From Bryobacterales bacterium (lineage in GTDB: Bacteria > Acidobacteriota > Terriglobia > Bryobacterales > UBA6623), in assembly GCA_028819235.1 (NCBI GenBank), contig JAPPMC010000270.1:62001-126000 (forward strand): a stretch of 64,000 bases of DNA. The letters are read 5' to 3'. Positions 241 through 51,401 of this stretch are shown here, piece after piece; positions within the stretch are counted from its first letter, which is position 1, and every line of letters starts with the position of its first letter. Made by a program: the position numbers and the translations under genes. The notes below the pieces were generated by a model, which had not been told where the DNA came from, did no database searches, and was given only the letters and a program-made list of their open reading frames with translations.

Positions 241-2457
241 GTGCTCAGACCGGCCGCAGCGGCTCTCGCCGCCGCCGCGTCGCTGGCGGTAATGGCGGGG
301 ATGCCATCTGCCGCACTGGATCGGGAGCAGCGCCTGGTGGAGCAGGTGCGCCAGCTGATCGCGGGACAGCGGCAGATCCGGATCTACGACTGGGTGACGT
401 TTCGGCTGGACGGGAGCGCCGTGATCCTGACCGGGGCAGTGACCCGGCCCAGCCTGCGGGCCTCGATCGAACGCTCGGTCGGAGCGCTGGAAGCGGTCGA
501 CTCCGTCGTAAACGAACTGCGCATTCTGTCGCGTTCGGGCGATGACATCGGCATCCGCATGAACGCCTACTGGCGGATTTACGGTCACCCGGAGATGCGC
601 CGCTACCAAAGGCGCGAGGGCGGCTTCGCCCAGCGCCTGCGCCGGGCGGCCGGCGACACCCAGATGGTCCTGCTGGAACCCGTGCACATCGTGGTCGAAG
701 ACAGCCACCTGACGCTCGAAGGGGAGGTGGAGCAGCAGCGGGAGCGGCGCGTCGTGGAGGAGCAGGCCCGAACAGTGGCCGGCGTACGCTCCATTACGAA
801 CAACATCGTGGTCACTGGCACCGACACCGAAGAGCTGGAGCCAATCGACTTTGAGCGGGATCCGTGGTGGGCCGACTCCGAGTCCGTCGTGGAGCCGGTC
901 CTAAGGGTGGAGAACCGCACCGGCGGCGTGACGGTCCGGGTCGCTAACACCGAGAGAGTCCGCCTCAGGCGCAGCTCGCCTGCCAGGCCCGTGCGCGACG
1001 GCGATACGGAAACCACCCGGCTCGGTCTGAAGACGCGCATCCGAGCAGTCCCGGACGACGGGTCCCCGATCGACCTGGAGGTCGACCTGCCGTACGGGCA
1101 CCGGCTGGAAGTCGAGACGATCGACGGGCCGATCGCCCTAGAGGGGCTTCTCCGCCGTGCCGATGTGAGGACGATGGTGGGCCGGATAGAGTTGGCGATG
1201 CCGTGGCGGGCCGTCCGGCTGGATGCCCGGCTGGGATACCGTCCCAGACGACTCTCGATACCGCTGCACTTGCGGGCATCGCTCGCCGCACCGAAGGATA
1301 GCCCCTCGCAGGGGGCCAGTTGGACGCTCGAGGACGTTCGGCCGGCCCATGTGCAGCTTTACGGATCGGTGCAGGTACGGGGCCGCCACCCCGATTCCAT
1401 GGAACTCACAGAGGGGCCGCTTCCGGAGGATTCCCCGGTTCGGATGCACTGGCAGGCACCCGAGGCGCTGGAGAACATGCTGCGTCGCCGGACTGCCATG
1501 CGCCTCACTGAGCGTAGTGATGCACAAGGGACGCCGGCGTCGGCCAGCGAGCCCGAACCCCGAGGCACTGCGAGCTTCCGGTCGGACGTGCGCCTCGTGC
1601 AGCTCACCGCCTCAGTTGTCGACGGACAGGGACACCCTGTACTGGGCCTGCGCACGGAGGACTTCCAGATTTTCGAGGAAGGCGAGCGCCAGGAAATCGG
1701 GATTATCCAGGACAACGAGTCGGCCTTCAATCTGGTGCTCTTGCTCGACTGCAGCACCAGCACGCTCGTGGACCGGAGTGCAGTGCTGGAGGCCGCCCGT
1801 CAGTTCGTCGGGACTGCCCGGCCTGGGGATCAGGTCGCGATCTACGTGCTCTCCGACGCCTTCCTGCAGGTGGTCAGCCCCCTCACCGCGGACCGCGACG
1901 CGCTCCTGCGGGCCATCAGCCGCATCCCGAGGCTCTCGGGCGGAACCCCCCTCTACGACGCCATCGTGCTCTCGTATGCCCAAGAACTGGCCAAACGGCG
2001 CTGGGAGCGGAACGCTGTCATCGTGATCAGCGACGGAATGGACAACGACCTGCTTCCGCGGCGCAGCCGCTCAGTGCCGTCGACCGTCCCCTTCGACGAC
2101 CTTTTCCGGGCCGTGGCCGAGATCAACGGCGCGATCTATCCGATCTTCCTAGAACCGGAGGAGTTCGGAGTGCGAGTCGAGCGCAGCTGGAAGGAGCGCC
2201 AGCGTCAGTCGACGGACCGGGCCCGGGAGCGCATGCGCAAGCTTGCGGATGCGACCGGCGGTCGGCTGTTCTCGGCCCGGTCCATACGCGACCTGGACCA
2301 TGTCTACGCGGAAGTGGCCGAGGAGCTGCGCAGCGTGTACACGCTCGGCTACTATCCGACGAACCAAGAGTTCGACGGCTCTTGGCGCGGCATCCGCGTG
2401 CGGGCTCTGCCGGGCTCCGCGCGGGTCCGCACACGGCCAGGCTACTACGCCCACTGA
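241..2457 (+). CDS. Secreted BON-BON-VWFA protein (VWFA-related acidobacterial type)
   Basis: The 738-residue product starts at a GTG and opens with an alanine-rich signal peptide (about residues 1-25). Two BON-like segments follow (about 30-95 and 120-195); the second ends in the typical VAGVRSITNNIVV. A middle region of about 200 residues has no recognised fold. The C-terminal 300 residues match the VWFA-related domain common in Acidobacteriota: RLVQLTASVVDGQGHPVLGL leads into it, and the metal-ion-dependent adhesion site is DCSTS at 503-507. BON domains usually bind lipid or membrane surfaces and VWA domains bind protein ligands, so an envelope role is likely, but the function is unknown. 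BON and VWFA in one chain is an uncommon pairing in my experience. It follows dnaJ by 36 bases and may share its transcript. Confidence 0.82.
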   Translation: MLRPAAAALAAAASLAVMAGMPSAALDREQRLVEQVRQLIAGQRQIRIYDWVTFRLDGSAVILTGAVTRPSLRASIERSVGALEAVDSVVNELRILSRSGDDIGIRMNAYWRIYGHPEMRRYQRREGGFAQRLRRAAGDTQMVLLEPVHIVVEDSHLTLEGEVEQQRERRVVEEQARTVAGVRSITNNIVVTGTDTEELEPIDFERDPWWADSESVVEPVLRVENRTGGVTVRVANTERVRLRRSSPARPVRDGDTETTRLGLKTRIRAVPDDGSPIDLEVDLPYGHRLEVETIDGPIALEGLLRRADVRTMVGRIELAMPWRAVRLDARLGYRPRRLSIPLHLRASLAAPKDSPSQGASWTLEDVRPAHVQLYGSVQVRGRHPDSMELTEGPLPEDSPVRMHWQAPEALENMLRRRTAMRLTERSDAQGTPASASEPEPRGTASFRSDVRLVQLTASVVDGQGHPVLGLRTEDFQIFEEGERQEIGIIQDNESAFNLVLLLDCSTSTLVDRSAVLEAARQFVGTARPGDQVAIYVLSDAFLQVVSPLTADRDALLRAISRIPRLSGGTPLYDAIVLSYAQELAKRRWERNAVIVISDGMDNDLLPRRSRSVPSTVPFDDLFRAVAEINGAIYPIFLEPEEFGVRVERSWKERQRQSTDRARERMRKLADATGGRLFSARSIRDLDHVYAEVAEELRSVYTLGYYPTNQEFDGSWRGIRVRALPGSARVRTRPGYYAH

Positions 2458-2496
2458 GCGGCGTCTCCGGCGGTAGTTCGGGCCCGCCTGCGCTTC

Positions 2497-2534
2497 TTGC
2501 GGCCCGCGGATCGGCCAATGTATACTTACAAGTA
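2497..2534 (+). promoter_or_regulatory. suf operon promoter with palindrome over the -10 box
   Basis: TTGCGG (2497-2502) and TATACT (2521-2526) are separated by 18 bases and look like a sigma-70 promoter. The -10 box lies inside an inverted repeat, TACTT-AC-AAGTA (2523-2534). Transcription would begin near 2533, giving a leader of about 45 bases before the sufB ATG at 2578. A repressor bound here would block the polymerase; the Rrf2 protein encoded later in the same operon is the obvious candidate. The site does not clearly match the E. coli IscR type 1 consensus, so the link is inferred. Confidence 0.5.
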
Positions 2535-2577
2535 CAGATTGGTTGCCGCGTGGCGGCGGCCCGGAACGCAATACACC

Positions 2578-4026
2578 ATGAGCACTGCAGTCGACCCACT
2601 CGAGGGCCTCGCGTCCCAGGAGTACAAGTACGGTTTTGTCACCGACATCGAGCAGGACACGCTCCCTCCCGGCCTCAATGAGGACACCGTGCGCTTCATA
2701 TCGGCCAAGAAGGGAGAGCCGCAGTGGCTGCTGGACTGGAGGCTGAAGGCCTTCCGGTACTGGCAGGGCATGAAAGAGCCGACCTGGCCGAACGTGCACT
2801 ACCCGCCCATCGACTACCAAGCGATCTCGTACTACGCGGCACCCAAGAGCGCAGAAGACAAGCCGAAGAGCCTCGACGAGGTTGACCCCGAGCTGCTGGC
2901 CACCTACGAGAAGCTCGGGATTCCGTTGGAAGAGCGTGCCATCCTCGCCGGCGTTGCAGTGGACGCGGTCTTTGACAGCGTGTCAGTGGCGACGACATTC
3001 CGGGAAAAGCTGGCAGAGGCGGGAGTGATCTTCATGCCCATCTCCGAGGCCGTTCAGGAGCACCCGGACTTGGTGCGGCGCTACTTGGGATCTGTCGTGC
3101 CGCCGTCGGACAACTTCTTCGCGGCGTTGAACTCGGCCGTCTTCTCCGACGGCTCGTTCGTGTTCATCCCCAAGGGGGTGACCTGCCCGATGGAGCTGTC
3201 GACGTACTTCCGGATCAATGCCATGAACACGGGCCAGTTCGAGCGCACGCTGATCGTGGCCGAGGAGGGCTCCCACGTCAGCTACCTCGAGGGCTGCACG
3301 GCGCCCATGCGCGACGAGAACCAACTGCACGCGGCGGTGGTCGAGCTGGTCGCGCTCGACGACGCCCGCATCAAGTACTCGACCGTGCAGAACTGGTACC
3401 CGGGGGACAAGGACGGCAACGGCGGCATCTACAACTTCGTCACGAAGCGCGGGGCCTGCCGGGGCAGGCGGTCCAAGATCTCCTGGACGCAGGTCGAGAC
3501 CGGCTCGGCCATCACCTGGAAGTACCCCAGCTGCATCCTCATCGGGGACGGCTCCACGGGGGAGTTCTACTCGGTCGCGGTCACCAACAACCACCAGCAG
3601 GCGGACACTGGCACGAAGATGATCCACATCGGCAGGAACACGTCCTCGACGATCATCTCGAAGGGCATCTCAGCCGGCCTGTCCAACAATTCCTACCGCG
3701 GCCTGGTCAAGATCATGCCCAGGGCGGAGGGCGCGCGGAACTTCTCCCAGTGCGACTCGATGCTGATGGGAGACCGCTGCGGCGCGCACACCTTCCCGTA
3801 TCTGGAAGTTCGCAACAAGTCGGCCCAGGTCGAGCATGAGGCGACTACCTCGAAGATCGGGGAGGACCAGATCTTCTACCTCAACCAGCGCGGCATCGAG
3901 ACCGAAGATGCGGTCTCGATGATCGTGAACGGCTTCTGCAAGGAGGTCTTCCGAGAGCTTCCTATGGAGTTTGCGGTAGAGGCGCAGAAGCTGCTGAGCG
4001 TCAGCCTGGAAGGAAGCGTCGGCTGA
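2578..4026 (+). CDS. sufB: Fe-S cluster assembly scaffold SufB
   Basis: SufB is the scaffold subunit of the SufBCD complex, on which iron-sulfur clusters are built in the cytoplasm. The ATG at 2578 gives 482 residues, the usual SufB length. The longer ORF-track start at 2497 would lie in the promoter, so it is rejected. Family hallmarks are visible throughout: FKTEKGACRG-like [28 protein letters not shown], the [21 protein letters not shown]-like segment and the C-terminal [14 protein letters not shown], whose Cys corresponds to the cluster-building cysteine of E. coli SufB. It is the first gene of the seven-gene operon and lies 34 bases before sufC. No clear Shine-Dalgarno sequence precedes it. 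Confidence 0.96.
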
Positions 4027-43080: not shown

Positions 43081-43923
43081 ATGCAACGTGGCCCCGCGAC
43101 ACCACCGTTCGCGGACAGCCCCGAGGAATACACGGTCCGGTCGATGCCGCTGCCGGGCTCGATGGAACTGCCCCTAGACGGGGCAGACCTGTGGTTTGCG
43201 GCCCTAGACGGGCCGCTCGACCCACTCTCTTCGGACACTTCAGTGCTGGCGCCATGCGAGCTACGACGCGCGCAGGGTATGAGCGCGGGGCCCCGCCGGA
43301 CGTTTGTGGGCGCTAGGGCGCGCCTGCGGCGGCTGCTCGCCGCTTACCTGCCAACTAGTTCGGGACCCGTGGATTTGCGGCGCGGCGTGAACGGCAAGCC
43401 CCGACTAACGGGCCACCTTGCCCATTGCGGGCTTCACTTCAACACCTCACATTGCCAAGCCAGAGCCATGTTCGCGTTCTCCCGATCTCAGGTGGGGGTC
43501 GACATCGAAGCCCTCCGTCCTCTCTCGTCGGCCCTCAGACTGGCCGAGCGGTTCTTCACCCCGTCGGAAATCGCCGAGGTTGCCAAACAGCGGGCCCGGG
43601 GCCAGCCAGACACTTTCCTCAAGATCTGGACATGCAAGGAAGCTTACGTCAAAGCCATCGGCGGAAGCGTCCCGCAGGATCTGGGCACATTCCAAGTCGC
43701 TCTTGAGCCGCGGCGGGGAGCAGCGCTGCTAGACGAGGATGGGCGCGCGATCGGCGGCTGGACAATGCTGCCCCTACAGCCCCAGAGGGGCATCATTGGT
43801 GCATTGGCAGTCTGTCAGGCCAAGGTCAAGCTGCGCCGATGGCTTCTCGCCGGACGCCCGTCACAGCCCTGGCCTCAGCTGGACTCAGGGGCGAGGAACG
43901 CGTCGAGGAAGCCGGTGTCGTAG
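43081..43923 (+). CDS. Sfp-type 4'-phosphopantetheinyl transferase
   Basis: This enzyme attaches phosphopantetheine from CoA to carrier proteins of fatty-acid, polyketide or peptide synthases. Sfp-family motifs are present in order: FNTSHCQARAMFAF, the magnesium-binding VGVDIEALRP, and FLKIWTCKEAYVKAIGG. The ATG at 43081 gives 280 residues; the next Met (43144) is also possible. The C-terminal 25 residues extend past the usual end and run through the 3' end of accC on the other strand, a 49-base overlap. No synthase genes are nearby, so it may serve the primary acyl carrier protein. Confidence 0.9.
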   Translation: MQRGPATPPFADSPEEYTVRSMPLPGSMELPLDGADLWFAALDGPLDPLSSDTSVLAPCELRRAQGMSAGPRRTFVGARARLRRLLAAYLPTSSGPVDLRRGVNGKPRLTGHLAHCGLHFNTSHCQARAMFAFSRSQVGVDIEALRPLSSALRLAERFFTPSEIAEVAKQRARGQPDTFLKIWTCKEAYVKAIGGSVPQDLGTFQVALEPRRGAALLDEDGRAIGGWTMLPLQPQRGIIGALAVCQAKVKLRRWLLAGRPSQPWPQLDSGARNASRKPVS

Positions 43924-45227
43924 CGACCCTCAATGAATGCGGGGTCGTCCAGGATTCTCAAGTGCACCGGAATCGAAGTCTGGATTCCTTCGAGCACACA
44001 CATTCTCAGAGCACGCCTCATGCGCTGTATGGCCTGGCGCCGGCAGCCAGCACTCGCCACAACCTTCGCGACCAAGGAGTCGTAGTACGGACGCACCCTC
44101 CACCCCGCAAAAGCCGCGCTGTCCACCCTGATTCCGCACCCTCCGGGCGCGGCGAACTGCGTGATCGTGCCAGCCGACGGCAGGAACGTCTGCGGATCCT
44201 CGGCGTTGATCCGGCATTCGATTGCATGCCCGCGCACTTCAGTCGGCCCGGGAATGACGTCGTCCAGCGATTCGCCGCTGGCGAGCAGCATCTGGCTCCG
44301 CACGAGATCGATCCCAGTCACAGCCTCGGTGACGGGATGCTCCACCTGGATGCGGGCATTGAGCTCGATGAAGTGAAGGTCGCCGGATTGGTCCATCACG
44401 AACTCCGCCGTGCCGGCGTTGGAGTAGCCGATGGAGCCCAGCGCTCGGGCCAAGAGCTCGTTGACCTCGGCACGGCGGTCAGCGCTGAAATGGTTCGCCG
44501 GAGCTTCCTCGAGGAGTTTCTGGTGCCGTCGCTGGATCGAGCACTCGCGCTCTCCGAGCGAGACCACGTTTCCGTAGCGATCCCCGAGCACCTGAAACTC
44601 AATGTGGCGCGGGTGTTCGACGAACCGCTCGAGGTATAGCTCGCCGGACCCGAACGCCGCCCCCGCCTCGCTCTGGGCCTGATTGAAGGCTTCCTCCAAG
44701 TCGTCCATTTCCCGCGCGATGCGCATGCCGCGCCCGCCTCCGCCCTTCGAGGCCTTAAGAATCACCGGGAATCCCACGTCAAGCGCACAGTCCCGGACCG
44801 CCGCAACCGACCGCAGCGGCTCTCTGGACCCGGGCAGCACAGGAATGCCGGCGTCCTCGGCCGCCCTCCGCGCCCTGGCCTTGTCGCCCATGAGCCGGAT
44901 GGCATCGGGCGTCGGCCCGATGAAGTGAATACCGCAGGCCTGGCAGATCTCCGCGAATCTGGCGTCCTCAGCCAGGAAGCCGTAACCCGGGTGGATCGCA
45001 TCCACATCGGTCACTTCGGCGGCGCTGATGATGGCAGGAATGCTGAGGTAGCTCTGACTGCTGTGGGGCCCGCCGATGCAGACCGCTTCGTCGGCGTGAC
45101 GCACGTGCAGCGACTCGCGGTCCGCGGTCGAATACACAGCGACCGTGCGAATGCCCAAGTCCCGGCAAGCAGCGATCAACCGCAGAGCGATCTCGCCACG
45201 ATTGGCGATCAGGACTCTATCGAACAT
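43875..45227 (-). CDS. accC: Biotin carboxylase, acetyl-CoA carboxylase subunit
   Basis: AccC carboxylates biotin on AccB with bicarbonate and ATP, the first half of malonyl-CoA synthesis. The 450-residue length is normal. The N-terminal domain starts FDRVLIANRGEIALRLI, with HPGYGFLAEDARFAEIC next. The ATP-grasp domain has KASKGGGGRGMRIA, the catalytic ERECSIQRRHQKLLEEAP, and FIELNARIQVEHPVTE with the metal-binding glutamate and the catalytic arginine. HAIECRINAEDP marks the C-terminal domain. It follows accB by 20 bases, in the order pepP-accB-accC common in bacteria. Confidence 0.96.
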   Translation of the reverse strand: MFDRVLIANRGEIALRLIAACRDLGIRTVAVYSTADRESLHVRHADEAVCIGGPHSSQSYLSIPAIISAAEVTDVDAIHPGYGFLAEDARFAEICQACGIHFIGPTPDAIRLMGDKARARRAAEDAGIPVLPGSREPLRSVAAVRDCALDVGFPVILKASKGGGGRGMRIAREMDDLEEAFNQAQSEAGAAFGSGELYLERFVEHPRHIEFQVLGDRYGNVVSLGERECSIQRRHQKLLEEAPANHFSADRRAEVNELLARALGSIGYSNAGTAEFVMDQSGDLHFIELNARIQVEHPVTEAVTGIDLVRSQMLLASGESLDDVIPGPTEVRGHAIECRINAEDPQTFLPSAGTITQFAAPGGCGIRVDSAAFAGWRVRPYYDSLVAKVVASAGCRRQAIQRMRRALRMCVLEGIQTSIPVHLRILDDPAFIEGRYDTGFLDAFLAPESS

Positions 45228-45247
45228 TCAGTTTGCCGACCGGGAAC

Positions 45248-45706
45248 CTAGGCGGGCTCCAGCCGGAATAGCGGCTGGCCGTACTCAACGGCCTGTGCGT
45301 TCTCCACCAAGCACTCCCTGATCACGCCGTCGTGCTCGCTCTCGATCTCGTTCATCAGCTTCATGGCTTCGATGATGCACACCACCTGGCCCTTGCGCAC
45401 GCGCGCGCCCACATCGACAAATGGTGGAGAGTCAGGCGCCGACGCCACATAGAACGTCCCCACCATGGGCGACGTGATCACCGCCTCCGCAGACGGGGGC
45501 TCGGTCCCTTCGGCAGGTGCCTCAGGGCGCTGCTCCTCGACCGGCGCTCTCGGAACATGCCCAGCGGAGACCGGCTGCACGGCTCCTGACCGAGCCACCC
45601 GTAGCCTGAGGCCACCCGACTCGTACTCGATTTCGGTCAGGCGCCGCTCGTCGAGAATCTCGACCAAGGCCTCGATCGCCGCCCGGTCCACTCGGTTGGT
45701 CGCCAT
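45248..45706 (-). CDS. accB: Biotin carboxyl carrier protein
   Basis: AccB carries the biotin of acetyl-CoA carboxylase. The C-terminal 80 residues form the biotinyl domain, with the biotinylated lysine in [13 protein letters not shown] and the family segment [24 protein letters not shown], which includes the thumb. The N-terminal 35 residues contain [26 protein letters not shown], the usual AccB N-terminal domain, followed by a Pro/Ala/Glu-rich linker. The ATG at 45706 is preferred to the TTG at 45712 because TAGGA lies at a good distance. It follows pepP by nine bases. Confidence 0.95.
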
Positions 45707-45715
45707 GCTCAATTC

Positions 45716-46804
45716 CTAAGCTGCCAGCACGCGAAGGTCACGGGATGTCGGCGTCAGCACCTCGCAGCCCTGCCTGGTCACAACAACAACGTCCTCGACC
45801 CGGGCGCCCGCGCAGCCGTCAAGATATGCTCCGGGCTCCACGGTGATCACCATGCCCTCGCGTAGGAGTGTCTCCTGCCTCGCCGCGACTCGAGGTTGCT
45901 CGTGAATCTCTAAGCCCAACCCGTGACCGGTCGAGTGCCGGAACGCGTTGTCCAAGCGCACACCCGCCACGGTGAACTTGCTTAGCACCTGCCGCGCACG
46001 ACGGTGGACGCTGCGACATTCCACTCCTGGGCGAACCGCGTCGACCGCAGCGGCCTGTGCTTCCAGAACGCCTCGGAACAGGGCCAACTGGGTCGCATCC
46101 GGCTCGCCCCAGGCAACCATTCTGGTCATGTCGCTGCAGTATCCGGCGAGTATAGCACCTTGGTCGACCACCGTCAGGGCCCCTCGCTGGACGGGCCGAG
46201 CACGGGGCTCGGCGTGCGGCAGCGCACCGTGCGAGCCGCTGGCGACGATGGTCGGGAATGCAGCCCCCTCGGCCCCCAGACGCCGCATCCCAAACTCCAG
46301 CTCCGCCGCCAGCCGGGCCTCGGACCAGTCGGGGCTCGAGCGTTCCAGAACCTCGTCGAACACCTGCGAGTTCAGCGACACGGATGCCTTGATGGCCTCG
46401 ATCTCGCCCGGGCTCTTGACCATCCGTAGGTCCTCGACTAGCGGTCGCGCGGGGTCTAGGCGGCAGTCGGCCAGTTCGTCGCGCAGGTAGCGGTAAACCG
46501 CATACGGCAGGCTGTAAGGCTCGAACTCCACCCGGCGGAGCCCTTGCTGGGCAATGCCCCGCGCAAGCGCTATCTGGGGATCCCCGTCCGAGATAACCAC
46601 CTCAACGCCACTCGTTTGGCGGCGGGCCTGGGAACGGTAGCGCCCATCCGTGAACAGCGTTGCCGAGTCCGGGGTCACCAAGAGGTGGCCGGCGCTCCCG
46701 GTGAAGCCGGTCAGGTAACGGATGTTCGCCCGAGACGAGACGTACATGCACCGACGCCCCAGCTCGGCCAGCAACTCGGCCAGCCTCTGCTTCTGCTCGC
46801 CCAT
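45716..46804 (-). CDS. pepP: Xaa-Pro aminopeptidase (M24B)
   Basis: The enzyme removes N-terminal residues that precede proline, in the cytoplasm. The 362 residues show a creatinase-like N-terminal domain (about 1-125; YLTGFTGSAGHLLVTP, FTDGRYRSQA) and an M24 metallopeptidase domain. Five ligands of the two-metal site are visible: the Asp residues of VDQGAILAGYCSDMTRM, His in STGHGLGLEIHE, Glu in ITVEPGAYL and Glu in ARVEDVVVV. It is the first gene of pepP-accB-accC, a common arrangement. Confidence 0.93.
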   Translation of the reverse strand: MGEQKQRLAELLAELGRRCMYVSSRANIRYLTGFTGSAGHLLVTPDSATLFTDGRYRSQARRQTSGVEVVISDGDPQIALARGIAQQGLRRVEFEPYSLPYAVYRYLRDELADCRLDPARPLVEDLRMVKSPGEIEAIKASVSLNSQVFDEVLERSSPDWSEARLAAELEFGMRRLGAEGAAFPTIVASGSHGALPHAEPRARPVQRGALTVVDQGAILAGYCSDMTRMVAWGEPDATQLALFRGVLEAQAAAVDAVRPGVECRSVHRRARQVLSKFTVAGVRLDNAFRHSTGHGLGLEIHEQPRVAARQETLLREGMVITVEPGAYLDGCAGARVEDVVVVTRQGCEVLTPTSRDLRVLAA

Positions 46805-46861
46805 CCTGCCATGGTGCGGCGCTCACGGGCCGCAGCGCCCATCATACGGCCATGTCGAGGC

Positions 46862-49264
46862 CTACCAGAACACCCGCAAGCGAAGGCTGGCAGTAGCCGG
46901 CTGAACGACGCGAGTGCCCACGAAGACCGACTGGAAGCTGTACAGGGCCCGGCGGTTGGTCAGGTTGGTGATCTGAAATGCAAGTTCCCAGGCCCTCCGG
47001 TCGCCTCGGAAGTGCTCGTACCCCAAGGAGGCGTCGACGACGACGCGCGGCCGGATACGCGGAGGGTCGGAGAGGAGGTTGACGAAAGGCAACTGGTCGT
47101 AGTAGTCCGGATCGGCGGCCACCTGCTCCGGGTCGGACGGGTTGGCAACGAGACCGCTGTCGAATCGCACCTGCGAGCTTGCCCACAATGTCCTTGCGAG
47201 GCGCACGAGGATGTTGCCGCTGGCGCCCAGCACTTGGTCATGGTCGATGACGAACGGACCGTCAGAGAGGGCATCCAAGGCGGAACTGGCAAGGAAGAGC
47301 CCCCCCGTGAAGGGCGGCGTCACTATGGCGCGGAAGTGCGTAACGCCGAGCGATCCTGTGACGCGGCGAGACGTGGGAAGCACAACTCTGGCCTCGAACC
47401 CGTTGACCCGCGAGAACGCCAGCGAAGTGGGAAAGATGATGCCGGTGTTCAGGAAGTTGTCGTTGTCCTGGGCGTTCGATGAGTGCTTGTGGTAGTACGC
47501 GGCGTCGAGGGACAGACGCCCGCCCAAGGCCTGCTGCAGTCCGACCTCGAATGCGTTCTGCCTCTGCGGCTGGATGGGGATTGCGCCCCCACCCAGCCCG
47601 CGCCGCACCTCTGGCGGCGCGAGGGCGGCCGACTCCGGGGCATTTGCGAGGAGCAGGTTCTCGTTCGGAGGCGTCTGCAGGTTGCGGTTGTACGAGGCCC
47701 TGAGCACGGTACCCGTAGGGCGAAGGTGGTAAGCGAATCCGACGCGGGGTTGCAGTTCCGTTGCTAACACGAGCATGGAGTATCGGTCCAAGCGCAGGCC
47801 AAGGTCCAGCACCAAGGGACCAAGTGTGAGGCGGTCGCGGACAAAGCCTGAAAGGAGCTGGCCCGAGGCCGCATCTCGGAACCGGAACGGACTGCCCCCG
47901 CGCGTCAGGTCGTGCGCCAAGAGGTTGGGGTTGAACTGTGGAGAACCTGGCCGGTTGACGCCCGGGTCCGTCAGCCCGAACGAGAAGCTCTCCGAGAGCG
48001 GGAAGTGCTGAGCGTCGAATCCGAAGGCAGCCTCGTGCCTGCCGCGCTGCCACTGGACGCGGTTGAAGCTGGCCAGTGTTGCGAGCGCACGGTCCAGTTG
48101 GGCTGTCACCGGGGTGTCGCCGGGGCTGGGTTCCAAGCGTGCCGATGTCGTTCGCAGCGAGGTGGTCGACTCCAAGGTTGCTGCTGGCGAAAGCACGCGG
48201 ACGTACCCTAGCGAGAAGGCCTGGTCGTCGAGCTCCCGCCGTTGGCGCTGACCGCTGGCGTGCTGACTCCGCAGGTTTGCGAGCTGAAACGACGAGCGTC
48301 CCGCCATCACGCTTGCCCGGAAGACGTTCGTCAGGGAGCGATGCCAGTCCAGCCGCGCCGAGACGCGCTGTGCGTTGCCTCCGTTGTGCAGGTTGTCGAA
48401 AGATGGCGAGTCGAGAAAGCGATTGGTCTTCACGCTCGAGAGCGAGGCGAACCAGCCGAGATCTCCCCTCGTTCCACCGATCTGTGCCCCTCCGGTGACC
48501 GTGTCGAATCCGCCAGCCCCGACGTCCATCTGGCCAAACGGGCGCCCACCCCCGTCAAAGCCCGACCGCGTCGTTACCCGCGCCACACCCGAGACCTTCG
48601 CGCCGTATTCAGGCGGGATGTTCCCGGTAAACAGCTCCAGCGTCTCGACCAAGCTCGGGTCGATCGAGGTCGAGAACTGGCCGGAGAACTGGTCGCTGAT
48701 GGGCATTCCGTCGACGACGTATGTCATTTGGTTATGGGCGCCCCGGGGGTGGATCGAACCGTTCGCGTTGGCTGCGAAGCCAGGGAATCCCAGCAGGAGC
48801 GCTTCCAGCCCTCGCAGACTGCTGGCCACCGGCAGCTTCTCGATGATCCGCCGTCCCAACTGCACCTTCGTGCCGCTCGCACGGGGGCTCAGGAGCGTAG
48901 CCGATGCCGTCGTGCTCACTTCAAAGGACTCGTGGCGCAAGGCCACCTCGAGGCGGACCTCAACCTCCTCAGGACGGCTCGAGCGCATCTCAATGGGACG
49001 CAAGAACGTCCGGAACCCGGGATGGGACACCTCAAGCTCGTACCCATGGAGAGGCACGTTGGCGATCCGGAACCGCCCCGCTACGTTGGTGGATACCTCT
49101 CGCTCAAACGCGGAGACCCTGTTGAATAGGCGCACTTCCGCGCCCTCGACGGCGGCGCCGGACTGATCAATGACCGTCCCAAGGAGGGTCGCCGCTAACG
49201 TGCGCGCCTCCAAGGGCTGGGCTGCTGGCAGGATTAGGGCCAGCAATATCACAATCAAGGGCAT
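46862..49264 (-). CDS. TonB-dependent receptor, probably metal-regulated
   Basis: The 800-residue protein has a signal peptide (LIVILLALILPAAQPLEA), an N-terminal carboxypeptidase-regulatory-like domain (about 28-115; GTVIDQSGAAVEGAEVRLF) and a plug (about 125-250) with GLEALLLGFPGFAANANG, then RGAHNQMTYVVDGMPI and EYGAKVSGVARVTTRSG. The barrel ends in ATASLRLRVFW, with the terminal aromatic residue of outer-membrane proteins. It is about 300 residues shorter than the two Oar-like receptors here, nearer to siderophore or cofactor receptors. The promoter is overlapped by a DtxR/MntR-like palindrome, so import of an iron or manganese chelate is likely, though no ligand motif proves it. No TonB/ExbBD or permease gene is adjacent. 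Confidence 0.9.
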   Translation of the reverse strand: MPLIVILLALILPAAQPLEARTLAATLLGTVIDQSGAAVEGAEVRLFNRVSAFEREVSTNVAGRFRIANVPLHGYELEVSHPGFRTFLRPIEMRSSRPEEVEVRLEVALRHESFEVSTTASATLLSPRASGTKVQLGRRIIEKLPVASSLRGLEALLLGFPGFAANANGSIHPRGAHNQMTYVVDGMPISDQFSGQFSTSIDPSLVETLELFTGNIPPEYGAKVSGVARVTTRSGFDGGGRPFGQMDVGAGGFDTVTGGAQIGGTRGDLGWFASLSSVKTNRFLDSPSFDNLHNGGNAQRVSARLDWHRSLTNVFRASVMAGRSSFQLANLRSQHASGQRQRRELDDQAFSLGYVRVLSPAATLESTTSLRTTSARLEPSPGDTPVTAQLDRALATLASFNRVQWQRGRHEAAFGFDAQHFPLSESFSFGLTDPGVNRPGSPQFNPNLLAHDLTRGGSPFRFRDAASGQLLSGFVRDRLTLGPLVLDLGLRLDRYSMLVLATELQPRVGFAYHLRPTGTVLRASYNRNLQTPPNENLLLANAPESAALAPPEVRRGLGGGAIPIQPQRQNAFEVGLQQALGGRLSLDAAYYHKHSSNAQDNDNFLNTGIIFPTSLAFSRVNGFEARVVLPTSRRVTGSLGVTHFRAIVTPPFTGGLFLASSALDALSDGPFVIDHDQVLGASGNILVRLARTLWASSQVRFDSGLVANPSDPEQVAADPDYYDQLPFVNLLSDPPRIRPRVVVDASLGYEHFRGDRRAWELAFQITNLTNRRALYSFQSVFVGTRVVQPATASLRLRVFW

Positions 49265-49277
49265 GTCTAGTTTAGGC

Positions 49278-49308
49278 TTTAGGATAGCCTAAATTCTAAT
49301 CTCGTCAA
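49278..49308 (-). promoter_or_regulatory. Promoter with DtxR/MntR-like operator
   Basis: On the minus strand, TTGACG (49308-49303) and TATCCT (49286-49281) are spaced by 16 bases, a good sigma-70 promoter. The perfect palindrome TTTAGG-N4-CCTAAA (49278-49293) covers the -10 box, and one more half-site (TTTAGGC, 49271-49277) lies next to it, downstream. The pattern resembles boxes of DtxR-family metal-dependent repressors. Transcription would start about ten bases before the receptor ATG at 49264. A second palindrome, GCCGAA-TC-TTCGGC (49309-49322), touches the upstream edge of the -35 box. Confidence 0.72.
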
Positions 49309-49679
49309 GCCGAATCTTCGGCATGCGCAATGGGCGACGACGCGAGGGATCGACAGCCGTAGTCGCCTAGGTGTAGGTCGGGGGTGCGCCGCGAATAGTA
49401 CCTTCCGCCGAAGCTCTGTGGCCGGCATGCAGCGCGACAAGGGCACAGTCAACGCGGCACGCGGGGCCGCTGCCGTCGATGCGACGGACCAAGGCCGAGG
49501 TGGCGCCCCAGGACTGGCGAATCCCAGCAGCACTCCGCTCAGATCGAGCCGTCTGCGACTTGCTCGGGCCTTTCCCGGGGAGTCCAATCCATTTCGCGAG
49601 GTCTCGCGACCCCGCCTATGGCAGAGGAACAGGGGAGTGGCCGGACCCCGCGGCATCCGCCTAAACTCCGCTCGAAGTG
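49309..49679. other. Spacer upstream of the receptor promoter
   Basis: About 370 bases separate the receptor promoter from the PhoD stop codon, both on the minus strand. I see no gene or U-rich terminator. The small palindrome at 49309-49322 is described with the promoter. Confidence 0.4.
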
Positions 49680-51401
49680 TCAGCGCACAGGGTGAGACAG
49701 TTCGCTGCGCTTAATCGTGATCTCGCCCACGGTCTCATCGTCGATGCTAACGATCCGGAAGGTGACAGAGGGATCGGGCTTGGTCAAGTCGAACGCAAGC
49801 AGCCCAAACGACTGCTTTTCGTTGTAGCCGAACAGCGCCCCTGGAACCAAGTCGTGAACGGCTTCGTTTGTGAGACGCGAGCTCTCGAACTCGTACAGCG
49901 GGTATCCGGCTTTCCGGTCGATGCGCCTGGCGTCCGAGCGGTGCCGGTCGGCTGACAGCAAGAACACCCCTTCAACCCTGTTGCGGCTGAGAAAGCCAAA
50001 GATCTCGTCCCGCTCTTGGCGAAACCCGTTCCATGTGTCGACCGCATCGCCCTTCGTGTCGAACGACCATGGGACAGGCGAGACGAGCACCTTGAAAGTG
50101 GCCGTCGACTCTTTGAGCCGCCCTAGGAGCCACTTCTTCTGGTGCGGTCCGAGCATGGTGGGAGAGTCGGCGAACGGGTTTGTGCGGTAGAAGCGGCCGT
50201 CGAGCATGAAGAAGTCGACGTCGCCGATCGCGAACTCGAACCACGTCCCTGGCCATTGATCCGAGCCATAGCCCGGGTTGACCCAGTTGCGGCGAAAATG
50301 CCGCAGGGAAGGCAGCTTCCACGGCGGTCTCTCGACGTACGGGCCCAGCCAGACATCGTCGGTAGCGCTGTCGTGGTTATCCCAGATCGCGTAGATGCCG
50401 GTACGGGCGACGAAGTGTCGAAACTCGCTGCCCGACTGACGCCGATAGTAGGTGTAGTGGTGCAGGCCATTCAGGTCCTCCGGGAGATCGATGTACACGT
50501 TGTCGCCGAGAAACAGGAATGCCTGCAGCTTGCGGGCGGAGATGGTGTTCCACATCCGCTCGTTTCGGGGGACGTAGCCCGCGCCGCCCCCAAAGCCGAC
50601 CTCGAACCGGACAGGTTCGCCCCCCTCTGGGGCCGTCGCGAAGACCGGATAGGCAGGTCCCAGTTCCGGCCGGCCGTCGACCAGCACGTCGTACCGGTAC
50701 GTCGTGCCCGGCAGCAGGCCGCCGAGCGCCACGACCGCGGTAAAGTCTTCTCCGGCGTCCGACCGAGCCGGCTGCGAGCGGACAGCCGCCCGGAAGGGAC
50801 CGGACTCGCCCGCGGCGGCAACGACCTGCACTTCGGCCTCTTGCACCGTGCGGACCCAGAACTTGGCGCCGCGCGCGGTCACTGATCCCAGCATGGGACC
50901 GTGCAGCAGGCGAAGTTCGCGCATGGCGACCTCTCGGCGGAACGGCTCGTAGCCCGAGAGGGGTTGCAAGAGGTCGCGCGGTCCGGCAAGGAACCGCTCG
51001 AACGGCAGCCCCGCCGCCTCCGCCAGCCGAACCAGATCGAAGGCCTGGTCCAACTGCCCGAGCTGGGCTCGGGCAATGGCCAGGTTGAAGAGTGACTCTT
51101 GATCCATCGGATCGTCAGCAAGCAACTCCTCCGCATAGCGCGCAGCCTCTTCAGGCTGCCCTCGCACGATCTCCAACATCTGCCGTTGTCCCCGGCGCTT
51201 GGACAGCCGCTCGGCGTGCTCGTAGAAGAACCGCAGGTTCCAACGGGTCTCGGCACCGTAGTACGGGTACTCGGAACCGTTCTCGAACGCCTGTGGTGGG
51301 GCGTGGCCGCGAAACGGCTCATCGAGCTGCGAGCAGGCCGACAGCAATCCCACTGCGACTAAGGCCTTCAACACCTTGAAGACTGGGACAAGGCCAGTCA
51401 T
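49680..51401 (-). CDS. PhoD-like phosphodiesterase/alkaline phosphatase, lipoprotein
   Basis: PhoD-family enzymes are metal-dependent phosphoesterases that release phosphate from phosphodiesters and monoesters outside the cell. The ATG at 51401 overlaps the sulfatase stop (ATGA). The signal peptide ends in the lipobox LLSAC, so the protein is lipid-anchored. Residues 80-135 look like a TPR-type helical segment (QESLFNLAIARAQLGQLDQAFDLV). A beta domain follows (LHGPMLGSVTARGAKFWVRT), then the metallophosphatase core: FLGDNVYID, YAIWDNHDSATDD, and FLLSADRHRSDARR. The TPR-like insert is unusual for PhoD. The pairing with a sulfatase suggests release of phosphate and sulfate from the same kind of polymer. 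Confidence 0.9.
   Translation of the reverse strand: MTGLVPVFKVLKALVAVGLLSACSQLDEPFRGHAPPQAFENGSEYPYYGAETRWNLRFFYEHAERLSKRRGQRQMLEIVRGQPEEAARYAEELLADDPMDQESLFNLAIARAQLGQLDQAFDLVRLAEAAGLPFERFLAGPRDLLQPLSGYEPFRREVAMRELRLLHGPMLGSVTARGAKFWVRTVQEAEVQVVAAAGESGPFRAAVRSQPARSDAGEDFTAVVALGGLLPGTTYRYDVLVDGRPELGPAYPVFATAPEGGEPVRFEVGFGGGAGYVPRNERMWNTISARKLQAFLFLGDNVYIDLPEDLNGLHHYTYYRRQSGSEFRHFVARTGIYAIWDNHDSATDDVWLGPYVERPPWKLPSLRHFRRNWVNPGYGSDQWPGTWFEFAIGDVDFFMLDGRFYRTNPFADSPTMLGPHQKKWLLGRLKESTATFKVLVSPVPWSFDTKGDAVDTWNGFRQERDEIFGFLSRNRVEGVFLLSADRHRSDARRIDRKAGYPLYEFESSRLTNEAVHDLVPGALFGYNEKQSFGLLAFDLTKPDPSVTFRIVSIDDETVGEITIKRSELSHPVR

Follow-up and report, generated by a model that had tools for sequence, protein, structure and literature searches.

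A palindrome in the promoter of a TonB-dependent receptor gene is predicted to be the operator of DtxR1, a DtxR-family repressor encoded elsewhere in the same genome, and we regard this assignment as very probable. Since such a box would be the switch of an iron/manganese repressor, the cargo of the receptor is most likely a source of iron or manganese, although sugars would be the default guess. The explanation as a whole, in which DtxR1 controls a receptor whose iron or manganese cargo would feed FeoB (and MntH in other lineages), is given a probability of about 0.83. Acidobacteriota genomes encode many TonB-dependent receptors whose cargo is almost never assigned, with sugars being presumed. 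Here, a regulatory logic kept over many genomes would assign one ortholog family to Fe/Mn uptake, and it names the repressor and both operators of a predicted regulon of two units, the receptor and dtxR-feo. Coupling of a receptor to FeoB or MntH instead of an ABC transporter, under the control of a DtxR-family protein instead of Fur, has few precedents in Gram-negative bacteria.

The operator, TTTAGGATAGCCTAAA (box A), was read directly at 49278-49293 of the window, which is the whole stretch of 64,000 nucleotides analysed here. It consists of the arms TTTAGG and CCTAAA around the centre ATAG and is a predicted site for one dimer of DtxR1 (G000:C238:4800-5489). The sequence-only reading had placed this palindrome over the -10 box of a minus-strand promoter, and both direct reading and a consensus scan confirmed it: the predicted promoter consists of TTGACG (49308-49303), 16 nt and TATCCT (49286-49281), and its -10 box lies within the operator. 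It matches the consensus at 9 of 12 positions overall and is the sole sigma-70-like promoter in 49150-49700, where shuffled sequences gave an expectation of 0.0 ± 0.2. Box A thus lies between the -35 box and the receptor start codon (ATG, 49264-49262), and a TTGAC-type hexamer occurs at about the same place in most of the receptor promoters of the congeners. An extra TTTAGG half-site (49271-49276; 7 bp in register from the operator arm) and a separate GCCGAA palindrome, GCCGAATCTTCGGC (49309-49322; a perfect hairpin), had also been pointed out. Both are present in the sequence, but neither is conserved. The receptor promoter of G002, the congener with 95% identity, has neither, and both are thus probably incidental; GCCGAATCTTCGGC was dropped as a second operator, and a role of the half-site in a two-dimer site is doubtful. 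When the window was searched with two mismatches allowed, one match to the box was found against 0.37 expected, so box A is unremarkable by the window count alone, and its weight comes from the genome-wide counts and the relatives.

The genome, a draft of 318 contigs and 7,189,338 bases (7.19 Mb), contains exactly two perfect copies of the 14-mer TTAGG-N4-CCTAA. One is at the receptor, and the other (C238:5491-5504) is 1 nt upstream of the GTG start codon of dtxR1. At the level of the 16-mer, there are one perfect copy and one copy with a single mismatch, the latter being that adjoining dtxR1. The product, DtxR1 (229 aa), has the architecture of DtxR, with matches to PF01325 (36.7 bits), PF02742 (102.6 bits) and the FeoA profile PF04023 (60.4 bits). 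A genome search for a DtxR-family gene and for other boxes near metal-transport genes, as proposed in the sequence-only reading, converged on this locus: dtxR1 is the one genuine DtxR-family gene, the two other PF01325 matches over the cut-off being GntR regulators, and it heads a feo operon in which the downstream genes encode a FeoA protein, with a hydrophobic segment at its N terminus, and FeoB, split into two ORFs. The two perfect copies indicate that the box marks the repressor-feo operon and the receptor. The genome also encodes Fur and several Nramp proteins, but none of their genes has the box, and no hidden boxes were found at these loci, where the best scores were 7-8 of 12; the metal is therefore not readable from the box. 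The 21 further 14-mers with one mismatch were rejected as regulon members, because the reversed-pattern control gave 133 and the number thus shows no sign of function. A third box could lie in sequence missing from the draft.

The gene between dtxR and feoB was found in two orders as an apparently membrane-anchored, DtxR-like FeoA, which contains a hydrophobic N-terminal segment, a DtxR-like metal-binding/dimerisation domain and one or more FeoA domains (L041:2178-3209, L047:2179-3207, L222:6122-7171). The second DtxR-like match after dtxR1 had been considered a DtxR-FeoB fusion, which was dropped in favor of this separate gene. The copy in the window's genome (L011:4141-4812) is shortened; the hydrophobic segment and the FeoA part remain, and the DtxR-like domain was not detected. 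The split FeoB consists of a GTPase protein and a permease protein. It occurs in the window's genome (L011:3326-4150 and 1935-3329) and in several others (L149:5679-7064, L222:7168-8315), one of which is a one-contig genome.

The pairing of the box with the receptor and with dtxR-feo, which bears out its earlier reading as a DtxR-type operator, was found in all ten congeneric genomes (G001-G010), although these genomes are related to each other and the counts are not independent events. In each of the ten, the receptor ortholog (66-95% identity to the receptor in the window) has a perfect box A that starts 29-32 bp before its start codon. All ten also have a box ahead of dtxR1, perfect in eight and, as in the window's genome, with one mismatch in G002 and G006. 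In the 11 receptor promoters of the genus, the twelve arm bases are 100% invariant, whereas across five divergent ones identity falls to 40% in the N4 centre and to 33% in the 40 nt upstream. Across the genus, the dtxR1 promoter has a good -35 box, then a -10 box and lastly the palindrome, immediately before the start codon, and this position fits repression by occlusion. The box had been likened to the sites of DtxR and IdeR. The likeness holds for the arms TTAGG/CCTAA, which are those of the classic 19-bp DtxR/IdeR box, TTAGGTTAGCCTAACCTAA, and the first 14 bases of the latter correspond to TTAGG-N4-CCTAA (PMC7762939). It does not extend to the spacing: the outer arms of the classic box are N9 apart (PMC7762939), whereas every conserved copy here has N4 instead of the 19-bp TTAGG-N9-CCTAA, and hence presents only the single one-dimer site contained within the longer box.

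All four genomes outside the genus that were examined and have both DtxR1 and a receptor ortholog carry box A at the receptor, perfect in G023 and G059 and with two mismatches in G012 and G013. In G059 and at locus L212, the receptor gene is divergent from dtxR1 and the box lies between them. In other Bryobacterales lacking DtxR1, the same receptor often carries a different palindrome, TTAACTATAGTTAA (box B), and the genomes with box B have an MntR-like paralog with a ScaR-type CPHG motif in place of DtxR1. Box B is exact before the receptor ortholog in G019, G021 and G049 and has one mismatch in G024, G028 and G043. It was first noticed on visual inspection of a few upstream regions; a search of those same genomes then found it in 14 of 61, each with a match to a DtxR relative, while the reversed control was almost empty. 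The association of box B with mntH (Nramp), which it precedes in about 12 cases, played no part in its choice. In shuffled upstream regions, either box was found at ≤2 mismatches in 0.3% of the trials. In G022, G029, G035 and G041, which do have an MntR-like protein, the receptor shows neither box B nor a neighboring mntR-like gene, and neither box was found in G033, G039, G042, G048 and G051, in which no DtxR relative was detected.

A scan of 84,980 species genomes recovered 80 receptor loci, mostly from Bryobacterales MAGs, which in part belong to the same genomes as those in the comparison above. Among the 78 loci with enough upstream sequence, box A was present in 15 and box B in 23 at ≤2 mismatches, where L169 and L170 were counted under both boxes with weak matches. 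Gene linkage was seen in several genomes: the receptor is followed by mntH in L234 and by an mntR-like gene in L174, it directly follows an mntR-like gene in G031, and it is clustered with dtxR, the DtxR-like FeoA and the split FeoB in L222 (Vicinamibacterales).

The receptor (800 aa; 46862-49264, minus strand) has a signal peptide, a CarboxypepD_reg domain, a plug and a β-barrel. Its matches to PF07715 and PF25183 and its CarboxypepD_reg plus OMP_b-brl_4 architecture place it among the TonB-dependent receptors. A structure model (pLDDT 70.6) showed an N-terminal hydrophobic helix and a strand-rich barrel, and Foldseek matched it to FrpB, FecA, PfeA and OprC with E-values of about 1e-18 or lower. 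The fold fits TonB-dependent receptors in general, so that the model and the Foldseek matches made no call on the cargo. The next paralog in the genome is only 33% identical, and orthologs occur across the order at 46-60% identity, with one close copy in most genomes. H177, H293 and D674/H675 are kept in the orthologs but are lacking in two paralogs. The neighbors of the receptor are pepP-accB-accC and a PhoD-like phosphatase gene. Within the genus, pepP-accB-accC (peptidase and biotin carboxylase genes; 43875-46804 in the window) is usually closely downstream of the receptor; in the window, 57 bp (46805-46861) separate them. Because of this position, these genes might share the metal-controlled receptor promoter.

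A metal-loaded dimer of a DtxR-family protein binds its box and blocks transcription, and metal shortage frees the box. With ample Fe2+ and/or Mn2+ in the cytoplasm, DtxR1 dimers loaded with metal would bind both boxes and block RNA polymerase, so that the receptor and the repressor-feo operon would be silenced, and scarcity would turn both on together. At the outer membrane, the TonB-powered receptor would import a source of iron or manganese, and FeoB, or MntH in other lineages, would move the divalent ion over the inner membrane. Both FeoB and MntH transport free divalent ions. On the simplest reading, the source would be released in the periplasm, probably as free M2+, instead of being passed to a siderophore ABC transporter.

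A role of the receptor in Fe/Mn uptake, which had been proposed from the operator, is supported by the box shared with dtxR-feo and kept in all the congeners, and it is quite likely on these sequence grounds. The Acidobacteriota default, namely that the receptor imports glycans or peptides and that the box is there by chance or as an additional input, is improbable. The CarboxypepD_reg plus OMP_b-brl_4 architecture and the presence of a GH95 glycosidase and a sulfatase within 10 kb would fit it. However, no SusD-like gene was found among the neighbors scanned, the SusC/RagA model TIGR04056 gave only 14.7 bits against its cut-off of 368, and GH95 was found beside none of the orthologs in the available flanks. 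Moreover, the box is invariant at the orthologs, and other families swap in a different metal-repressor box. It is more improbable still that the palindrome arose by chance or is the site of another regulator. Although matches with two mismatches are not unusual in the window, one of the only two perfect 14-mers in the genome is at the dtxR gene itself, and the arms are invariant, with conservation in 10/10 congeners.

The choice between the two metals is closer. The feo operon argues for iron, whereas the MntR-like sequence of DtxR1 and the links to mntH argue for manganese. DtxR1 keeps the metal ligands H-x-E-A-E-x-L-E-H, as is expected of the DtxR/MntR family. It has Glu at the position of Cys102 of DtxR and Asp/Asn at that of Met10 (this N-terminal ligand is Asp in most relatives and Asn in the window's genome and several congeners), and Lys replaces Glu11 of MntR. 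Its best NCBIfam match is the Thermus-type MntR, with 201 bits, which is under the cut-off of 350 for that model. The chains nearest to it by sequence include 5zr4, which we take to be the MntR of M. tuberculosis, and the iron-dependent-repressor chain 8pvt, presumably DR2539 of D. radiodurans. It is less likely, but quite possible, that the receptor imports manganese and not iron, DtxR1 being an MntR and the FeoB of the operon a Mn2+ importer, as in Porphyromonas gingivalis (PMC4805248). The ligand positions and the NCBIfam match would fit this, as would the receptor orthologs in other families that share box B with mntH or adjoin mntH. Against it, the regulon in this genus is feo, which typically serves ferrous iron, no box is found at the Nramp genes of this genome, and DR2539-like proteins answer to Fe too (PMC3327659). 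We give iron about an even chance of being the main metal in this genus, manganese a distinctly lower one and both metals together a lower one again. The occurrence of the same receptor under an MntR-like paralog with mntH in related families suggests Fe or Mn as its natural cargo, with either perhaps being accepted. More tentatively, the receptor family may be a dedicated outer-membrane Fe/Mn gate that feeds free ions to the M2+ importer of each lineage, its operator having been exchanged between two DtxR-family repressors. The operators would then be box A for DtxR1 and box B for the MntR-like paralog, and the family, which was found in Bryobacterales and one Vicinamibacterales record, would form the outer-membrane half of Feo/MntH uptake in Acidobacteriota.

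In the literature searched, no paper on a DtxR-regulated TonB receptor in Acidobacteriota was found. The nearest precedent is the TBDR-pTFP module of Stenotrophomonas maltophilia, in which a TonB-dependent receptor is regulated by MntR and which likewise combines DtxR-family control of a receptor with a metal importer in the regulon (PMC13217887). The S. maltophilia receptor has a CQNC motif in its plug and a periplasmic thioredoxin-fold partner, whereas the present receptor has neither: no cysteine at all follows residue 22 in 18 of 23 orthologs, and no thioredoxin-fold gene was found among its neighbors described above. In addition, the partners here are feo or mntH, and the phylum differs. 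The repressor closest in kind to DtxR1 is DR2539 of Deinococcus radiodurans, which responds to both Mn(II) and Fe(II) and shares with DtxR1 the Lys at the Glu11 position, an equivalent of His98 and an SH3-like domain; DR2539 was shown to control the metal importer gene mntH, whereas the predicted targets of DtxR1 are dtxR-feo and an outer-membrane receptor (PMC3327659). FciA and FeoABI of S. maltophilia, which act on ferric citrate, are similar in that receptor-delivered iron depends on FeoB and not on an ABC importer of the FecCD type, but that system has a different receptor operon, fciTABC (PMC9047314). In P. gingivalis, PgMntR is described as a DtxR-family regulator with twin FeoA domains, encoded in an operon with the FeoB-type manganese transporter FB2 (FeoB2), which indicates that FeoB can carry Mn; DtxR1 likewise has a FeoA domain and shares an operon with FeoB. 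The PgMntR regulon as described there includes no outer-membrane receptor, and FB2 carries Mn (PMC4805248).

Three further observations were made on genes near boxes or box-like motifs. In G011, a genome of 74% completeness without a detected receptor ortholog, a perfect box A lies directly before the gene of a 449-aa secreted protein (L089:4558-5907) with coiled-coil and porin-like features and without a Pfam match, possibly another outer-membrane entry for metal. Upstream of the receptor ortholog in genus g19, where no DtxR was detected, a palindrome-like TGATA-N6-TATCA motif recurs (L115, L117, L120) and may be bound by a further regulator. G027 encodes another TonB-dependent receptor (L148:1428-2912), distinct from the first and with a strong plug match. 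Its start lies 28 bp past the first base of a box B (TTAACTACAGTTAA), and it is a candidate for a further member of the MntR-like regulon.
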